A program made the translations under genes and the position numbers. From positions 1-31,434 of IMG/VR virus record IMGVR_UViG_3300018481_000056: a DNA stretch of 31,434 nt, one strand, 5' to 3'. Origin of the DNA: a virus. Below are positions 29,266 to 29,477 of this stretch, in pieces. Within the stretch, counting starts at the first letter, position 1. Every line of letters begins with the position of its first letter. The notes beneath the pieces are model-generated. The model ran no database searches and was not told where the DNA came from. It worked only from the letters and a program-made list of their open reading frames with translations.

Positions 29266-29309
29266 ATACCTCCGCCGCCACGGTGGCCGTGCTGCTCATC
29301 ACTCGGTGA
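29262..29309 (+). CDS. 15-codon open frame, possible leader peptide
   Basis: ATGA overlap with the preceding gene, then MNTSAATVAVLLITR and TGA. The stop lies inside hairpin H1 of the structured RNA, so translation would open that hairpin. It may be chance; listed because of its coupled start and its position. Confidence 0.25.
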   Translation: MNTSAATVAVLLITR

Positions 29310-29477
29310 TGAACAGTGCGGTCGGGTGGCGACACTCGATGAACGTCCCCCGTCCGTCTTGGTTGGGATGCCTTTCCGGGCGGGGGACCTGGCTACTCCG
29401 TGAGGGAAGTAGCCCACCACGCACGGCTTCTCTCCGGTTCCCGTGCGTGCGTGGAGAGCGGCCCTCGCTCTGCTTTT
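29296..29477 (+). ncRNA. Structured RNA with antisense loop against the shared leader
   Basis: Five consecutive hairpins fill this gap between genes. H1 is TCATCAC-TCG-GTGATGA (29296-29312). H2 is a 12-bp stem, 29345-29356 / 29377-29388, with one G-U pair and a 20-nt loop. H3 is GGCTACT (29391-29397) / AGTAGCC (29408-29414). H4 is a 13-bp stem with one bulge, 29414-29426 / 29441-29454. H5 is AGAGCG-GCCCT-CGCTCT (29455-29471), followed by GCTTTT, an intrinsic terminator. The H2 loop contains GGGATGCCTTTC (29365-29376), the exact reverse complement of the leader shared by three early genes (a fourth has one extra T). No promoter is obvious, so it may be cut from the early message. A trans-acting antisense RNA is inferred. 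A cis-acting element for the gene at 29506 is the alternative. Confidence 0.6.
29455..29477 (+). terminator. Intrinsic terminator at the end of the structured RNA
   Basis: Stem AGAGCG (29455-29460) / CGCTCT (29466-29471), loop GCCCT, then GCTTTT. The T-run is shared with the start of palindrome copy 12. Confidence 0.6.

Follow-up and report, generated by a model that had tools for sequence, protein, structure and literature searches.

A candidate antisense hairpin complementary to Start-Associated Sequences in three related phages and in Cluster K1 mycobacteriophages

The locus described here raises the question of why a phage should carry, in the loop of a strong hairpin between two genes, the exact reverse complement of a short sequence that stands directly before the start codons of several of its own genes. 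In the window (the whole stretch of DNA analysed, 31,434 nucleotides, IMG/VR virus record IMGVR_UViG_3300018481_000056), an initial annotation had described hairpins and a terminator filling one gap, with a 12-bp stem (H2) presenting a 20-nt loop. The loop was said to be the exact reverse complement of the leaders of the genes at 26636, 27252 and 27648, and to match the leader of the gene at 30198 apart from an extra T. All of these features are present (Table 1).

Repeated leaders and the complementary loop

A motif search of the window gave three exact copies of the leader GAAAGGCATCCC and a fourth site with one mismatch, which was read as an inserted T. All four lie on the + strand directly 5′ of a start codon, with the ATG 0–3 nt away, and the layout is palindrome TTTAGTGGCACTAAA, 0–2 bases, GAAAGGCATCCC and then the ATG. 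At the gene encoding a secreted-type protein (27648–28064) the complementarity between leader and loop extends to 14 nt; the product of the gene that follows the variant leader is of winged-helix type, and its relatives are annotated as winged helix-turn-helix proteins.

What the initial annotation did not recognise is that these leaders belong to a known element type, the Start-Associated Sequences (SAS), of which they form a new set. SAS were described in Cluster K mycobacteriophages in 2011 (PMC3203893) and are also found in Microbacterium cluster EF, with the sequence GGGAAAGGACCCC (PMC7302621). As with the known SAS and ESAS (PMC3203893, PMC7302621), a short, asymmetric and conserved repeat, here of 12–13 nt, lies over the ribosome site of several genes, many non-structural genes being marked in this way, and an inverted repeat often stands just upstream, in the window at a subset of the sites. 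The Cluster K sequence GGGATAGGAGCCC is not matched by the window motif, and the palindrome is also different and variable; thus the kind of element is shared with the Cluster K and EF phages but the family is not. Although SAS have been known since 2011, and occur in phages as widely used as TM4, Adephagia and ZoeJ, their role has been called unknown, ill-defined or unclear up to 2025 (PMC3203893; PMC11373665, 2024; PMC12699233, 2025).

The palindrome is not confined to the leaders. TTTAGTG(N)CACTAAA and close variants were seen at window positions 4897, 10566, 13212, 21148, 25609, 26604, 27223 and 27620, with more positions or variants at 28180, 28666, 29476, 30169 and 30902; 10 were found against 0.16 expected when up to 3 mismatches were allowed, mostly in intergenic positions and in both arms of the contig. 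These dispersed palindromes are probably operator sites for a phage repressor, the version in the related phage G002 (see below) being different (TTTACNNNGTAAA). SAS genes also tend to have a promoter-like site of their own, followed by a stable 5′ hairpin and then by the palindrome and SAS, as seen at 27142–27170 and 30110–30163 in the window and at L070 7540–7640 in G002; an example of such a hairpin is CAAGGTCGGAGGTAGGTGCCTCCGGCCTTG at 30134–30163. It is possibly an attenuator or a leader that protects the mRNA.

The reverse complement of the leader occurs exactly once on the + strand of the window, in the 3′ part of the H2 loop, where Markov models of order 1–3 gave an expectation of 0.002–0.0034 exact matches for that strand. 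The chance odds of 0.4% originally estimated for both strands were about right, the value for the + strand being about 0.2–0.3%. The hairpin begins 80 bases past a stop codon, and the surrounding region (29290–29482) folds at −100.3 kcal/mol (z −4.44), a value equalled by 0 of 200 shuffled sequences. Inside the H2 loop the predicted fold contains an internal loop (UCUU/UUUC), a 3-bp mini-stem (GGU:GCC) and an apical loop (UGGGAU). Terminator-like hairpins numbered 4 in this region against 2.3 expected from shuffles, which is weak alone; promoter-like sites numbered 2 against 0.5 expected by chance, and the same search of this region gave no separate promoter for a hairpin RNA. No match at gathering score to Rfam 15, including its antisense RNA families, was obtained in the whole window, nor anything convincing for the structured stretch at E up to 1; near-matches to symR, mir-2766, RNAI and istR scored far under the gathering threshold and were discarded.

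Table 1. Positions in the window of the SAS-type leaders, the anti-SAS hairpin and accompanying elements.
Feature	Position	Strand	Remarks
SAS-type leader GAAAGGCATCCC	26621..26632	+	gene 26636-26965; best loop duplex ~ -29 kcal/mol
SAS-type leader GAAAGGCATCCC	27240..27251	+	gene 27252-27524; best loop duplex ~ -31 kcal/mol
SAS-type leader GAAAGGCATCCC	27635..27646	+	gene 27648-28064; best loop duplex ~ -28 kcal/mol
SAS variant GAAAGGCATTCCC, one extra T	30185..30197	+	gene 30198-30707; loop duplex ~ -21 kcal/mol
Palindrome TTTAGTGGCACTAAA (ESAS-like)	26604..26618	+	upstream of SAS; copies 27223-27237, 27620-27634
Palindrome variants	29476-29491, 30169-30183		
Promoter-like TTGACT-17-TATTAT	27142..27170	+	upstream of SAS gene 27252; matches 10/12
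Structured non-coding stretch	29291..29482	+	flanking genes end 29265, start 29506
Hairpin H1	29291-29317	+	
Hairpin H1b	29321-29340	+	
Anti-SAS hairpin H2	29345..29388	+	stem 29345-29356/29377-29388, 12 bp; 20-nt loop 29357-29376
Anti-SAS loop segment GGGATGCCTTTC	29365..29376	+	exact reverse complement of leaders; 3′ part of H2 loop
Hairpin H3	29392-29413	+	
Hairpin H4	29414-29454	+	
Terminator-like hairpin AGAGCGGCCCTCGCTCT, GCTTTT tail	29455..29471	+	7 pairs

Loop and leaders in related phages

Two relatives carry both leaders and hairpin. G002 (IMGVR_UViG_3300036759_000032, also present in 3300036826_000101) was found via its terminase, independently of the loop; G001 (IMGVR_UViG_3300020020_000097) was fetched by the loop pattern and so provides independent evidence only for its leaders. 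G002 has five SAS leaders, three reading GAAAGGCATCCC and the other two GAAAGGTATCCC, together with two opposite-strand copies of GAAAGGCATCCC that both lie in hairpin loops, and G001 has four leaders and one anti-SAS hairpin. In predicted folds the anatomy of H2 was repeated at L070:7439 and L070:11285 in G002 and at L201:9554 in G001. All four hairpins of the three phages have in common the loop core T(T/C)GG(TT/CC)GGGATGCCTTTCC, kept as UNGGYYGGGAUGCCUUUCC in the RNA, with a mini-stem of the form GGY:GCC (U-G changed to C-G in one hairpin) and an apical YGGGAU, whereas the outer stems have been rewritten between phages and retain full pairing with different letters. These stems differ too much in their bulges to be aligned, and their pairing was assessed hairpin by hairpin. 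In the two G002 leaders with a C-to-U change (GAAAGGTATCCC; the GAAAGGUAUCCC leaders), pairing to the loop is kept as G-U.

The neighbouring proteins of the three phages are 32–43% identical, and at this distance the near letter-for-letter retention of the loop is striking. The relatives speak strongly against a chance origin of the match, and the initial suggestion that the loop pairs with a repeated family of ribosome leaders is strongly supported by a loop that is kept while its stems are replaced. In G002 the palindrome at the leaders is TTTACTCCGTAAA in place of TTTAGTGGCACTAAA, and none of either kind was seen at the G001 leaders; the palindrome is therefore not needed for the partnership between SAS and loop. 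Perfect hairpins (GGACCAGCGCCGCTGGTCC and GGACAGTCACCCTGTCC, L201 2600–2640 and 3250–3285) precede two of the SAS leaders in G001, replacing the palindrome.

The position of the hairpins bears on the form of the RNA. The G001 hairpin and the second G002 hairpin start a few bases past a stop codon, one of them being followed by CCTTTT, and look like part of an mRNA; the separate RNA of 150–200 nt that had been expected at first is not supported, nor is the early timing then assumed for the target genes. Both sit ahead of related genes (...GWSEGQLACR.../...QWSDGVIECR...), and from the shared gene order their counterpart in the window phage would fall past the window's right end. In each of the three phages the majority of SAS genes precede the hairpin and share its strand, with others downstream at 30198 in the window and at L070:7652 in G002.

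The opposite-orientation SAS of Cluster K1 and searches in other genomes

In each of the four first-described K1 genomes a single SAS in the opposite orientation was noted without explanation (PMC3203893). We found that in Anaya, Angelica and Adephagia this copy makes up the loop of a strong hairpin, which lies in a gap close to the right end and across which a hypothetical gene has been annotated in some records (e.g. Angelica). None of the SAS papers found makes such a tie between the opposite copy and an RNA hairpin. The element surrounding the K1 hairpin matches 177 phage records. Six K1-type phages with differing flanks have the identical loop, CCTCCTATCCC, and an alignment of nine K1, K5 and K6 sequences showed both-side changes in 8 of the 11 outer pairs of the K1-type stem, as high a number being reached in 0 of 500 shuffles. 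The Adephagia hairpin occupies the gp92–gp93 gap, in which an RNA-seq study reportedly places the start of late transcription (PMC11373665), and this position suggests that the hairpin is produced with the late transcript.

Three further elements lie in the Anaya gap (L010 29740–29850): a conserved promoter-like TTGRCG...TAGACT, the short palindrome GGCACAACTGTGCC and a strong hairpin resembling a terminator. They are retained more widely across cluster K than the anti-SAS loop, and the gap may be the leader of a late promoter that has termination control of its own.

Not every SAS phage has such a loop. Those of K5 and K6 are imperfect SAS matches, with duplexes of −16 and −19 kcal/mol against −23 kcal/mol for K1; in cluster K no loop matching the SAS was found in K3 phages, SirPhilip or KiSi, and in the cluster EF SAS phage AnnaSerena there was no matching hairpin loop in the last 36.7 kb (65% of the genome). 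Thus, SAS cannot generally depend on such a loop. The initial annotation had held that relatives with leaders but lacking the hairpin would count against its proposal; this situation partly arises elsewhere, in AnnaSerena, over the part scanned, and in several phages of cluster K, whose SAS leaders have no matching loop.

Specificity was examined in 37 loci, which were scanned for repeated Shine–Dalgarno-like leaders whose complement occupies a hairpin loop; matches came only from the window, from G001 and G002 (the latter in two overlapping loci), from Anaya and from a single ZoeJ site. The ZoeJ match was rejected as the ordinary SAS of a leftward gene, and opposite-strand matches in ZoeJ and Aminay, which lie at the starts of leftward genes, were likewise those genes' ordinary SAS. 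No anti-leader hairpin was present in the scanned genome parts of Arthrobacter phage Beagle, Curtobacterium phage Kithara and Microbacterium phage Hyperion. Scanning IMG/VR with the leader pattern, the palindrome half being fixed, gave eight loci that were mostly AT-rich and without a placed start codon, and these were put down to chance; one of them, L002, is GC-rich with a single leader-like site. When the loop pattern TNGGNNGGGATGCCTTTCC was run against genome contigs, those checked among the matches listed had neither the hairpin anatomy nor SAS, and no prophage source of the loop was among them. BLAST of 361 bases around the hairpin gave no match in isolated phages, and profile searches with two neighbouring genes returned only already-known phages or relatives without the motif. 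The window version of the hairpin was found in three phages only.

Pairing, alternative explanations and a proposed mechanism

Duplexes predicted between the H2 loop and the SAS leaders lie at about −21 to −31 kcal/mol, compared to about −7 to −8 kcal/mol for the 16S rRNA tail, whose CCUUUC end can pair with the GAAAGG part of the leader. In the window, G001 and G002 alike the SAS sites are the most stable + strand targets predicted for the loop. Folding predictions also indicate that the loop is open: the anti-SAS segment in the window has an unpaired probability of 0.75 (0.99 for its first five bases), GGGAU is 90–99% unpaired, and loop accessibility is 0.67–0.75 against a mean of 0.37 for random 12-mers; the SAS sites themselves are 34–73% unpaired. 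The loop is complementary to the Shine–Dalgarno region of its putative target mRNAs, as in a c4-like mode, and this complementarity recurs in G001 and G002. The unpaired loop, the SAS as its best targets and the K1 hairpin, with its different tag and covarying stem, further back the original idea of a loop that reads leaders.

We consider it probable, though well short of certain, that the hairpin works as an antisense element which, by pairing with the SAS leaders, keeps the SAS genes as a set from being translated. This reading rests on sequence and predicted structure, namely the complementarity, the hairpin, the loop kept with stems replaced and the recurrence in K1 with a different tag, and from these we infer base pairing in the cell, repression, its timing and the form of the RNA. 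Pairing would begin between the apical GGGAU and AUCCC of the leaders; the 3-bp mini-stem would open next, and the duplex would grow to 12–14 bp across GAAAGG, the Shine–Dalgarno part of the leader, the loop CCUUUC having the same letters as the 16S rRNA 3′ end. The 30S subunit would in this way be excluded from all SAS genes together. The RNA would probably be a processed or terminated 3′ part of a transcript crossing the SAS genes, acting as delayed feedback both in cis and in trans, and the order in the window-type phages, with SAS genes mostly upstream and the hairpin after them, suggests such a 3′-derived feedback RNA. In K1, where the hairpin lies in the gap in which late transcription starts, the SAS genes may be turned off as late transcription begins. 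The match between hairpin and leaders is in our view real, conserved and mechanistically specific, and its regulatory interpretation plausible.

A terminator needs no complementarity to its own genome's tag, yet the four loops in three phages have it, the K1 loop has it with a different sequence, and the C-to-U changes in leaders retain the pairing. It is thus unlikely that the hairpins are mRNA-end terminators or elements of RNA processing or stability, with a loop that serves as a protein site (e.g. for an antiterminator) and a leader match that is incidental or historical, even though two of them closely follow a stop codon, one with CCTTTT behind it, the window hairpin precedes a terminator-like hairpin and the conserved UNGGYY reaches past the leader-pairing stretch. 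The upstream, same-strand position of most SAS genes in the three phages would also fit a 3′ hairpin that pairs with the leaders of its own polycistronic mRNA, closing the message or tuning the operon while acting in trans weakly or not at all. We regard this as unlikely too, as a separate promoter-like site (27142–27170) stands before at least one SAS gene and the SAS genes at 30198 and L070:7652 are downstream, past a message ending at 29477. Dispersed, asymmetric DNA sites are indeed employed by actinophages, the stoperators of L5-type phages, with which SAS have been contrasted (PMC3203893), being an example; however, SAS overlap the ribosome site 0–3 nt before the start codon on one strand, and each opposite copy occupies the loop of a strong hairpin, with a stem that pairs without its sequence being conserved, which is an RNA signature and makes a double-stranded site bound in either orientation by a regulator, with the hairpin as a site in palindromic surroundings, very improbable. 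Activation, by opening of an inhibitory leader structure or by sponging of a host or phage RNA with the same Shine–Dalgarno-like sequence, is hardly to be expected of a duplex that spans the Shine–Dalgarno part, ends at the start codon and should exclude the ribosome, despite some leaders being partly paired (0.34–0.73 unpaired, predicted) with a short palindrome just upstream.

The antisense reading has partial parallels in known systems. The c4 RNA of P1 and P7, which blocks translation of the phage ant mRNA, is also structured, with loops likely complementary to the ribosome-site region (PMC12197685), but it targets ant, whereas the window hairpin sets one loop against a tag repeated at several genes. 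T4 RegA (PMC3014915) is likewise a single regulator that competes with the ribosome at many phage gene starts; it is a protein, and the A+U-rich start regions that it recognises belong to about 30 mRNAs, whereas the regulator proposed here is an RNA that would recognise its targets by base pairing. None of the openly accessible papers searched describes a single RNA loop directed at a repeated tag. Small RNAs of the RsaE type in Firmicutes have C-rich, anti-Shine–Dalgarno-like loops that pair with the ribosome sites of several mRNAs; these are host-encoded and use short UCCC seeds, whereas the window hairpin is phage-encoded and has an exact match of 12–14 nt to a dedicated leader.

More tentatively, and with the balance somewhat against it, at least two unrelated actinobacteriophage lineages may use one antisense hairpin as the master switch of an SAS-tagged gene set, in K1 made from the late-promoter region and ending SAS translation. 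The loop would then imitate and extend the anti-Shine–Dalgarno end of 16S rRNA, as an RNA counterpart of RegA. If the antisense reading is true, the SAS described in 2011 gain a function, and a tag-reading hairpin would explain the lone opposite-orientation SAS of the K1 phages; many genes would be placed under one loop by a simple RNA design, and the timing of expression in these phages would be directly testable.

Two other annotations in the window deserve comment. The sole predicted tRNA, a tRNA-Leu at 15398–15489, runs antisense to a repetitive Pro-Glu coding stretch in a leftward gene; the call is probably false. The protein encoded at 23041–23580 (−) matches phrog_645, labelled RNase E (E 9e-22); a location close to the terminase points to a small-terminase or DNA-binding protein, and the RNase E label is doubtful.
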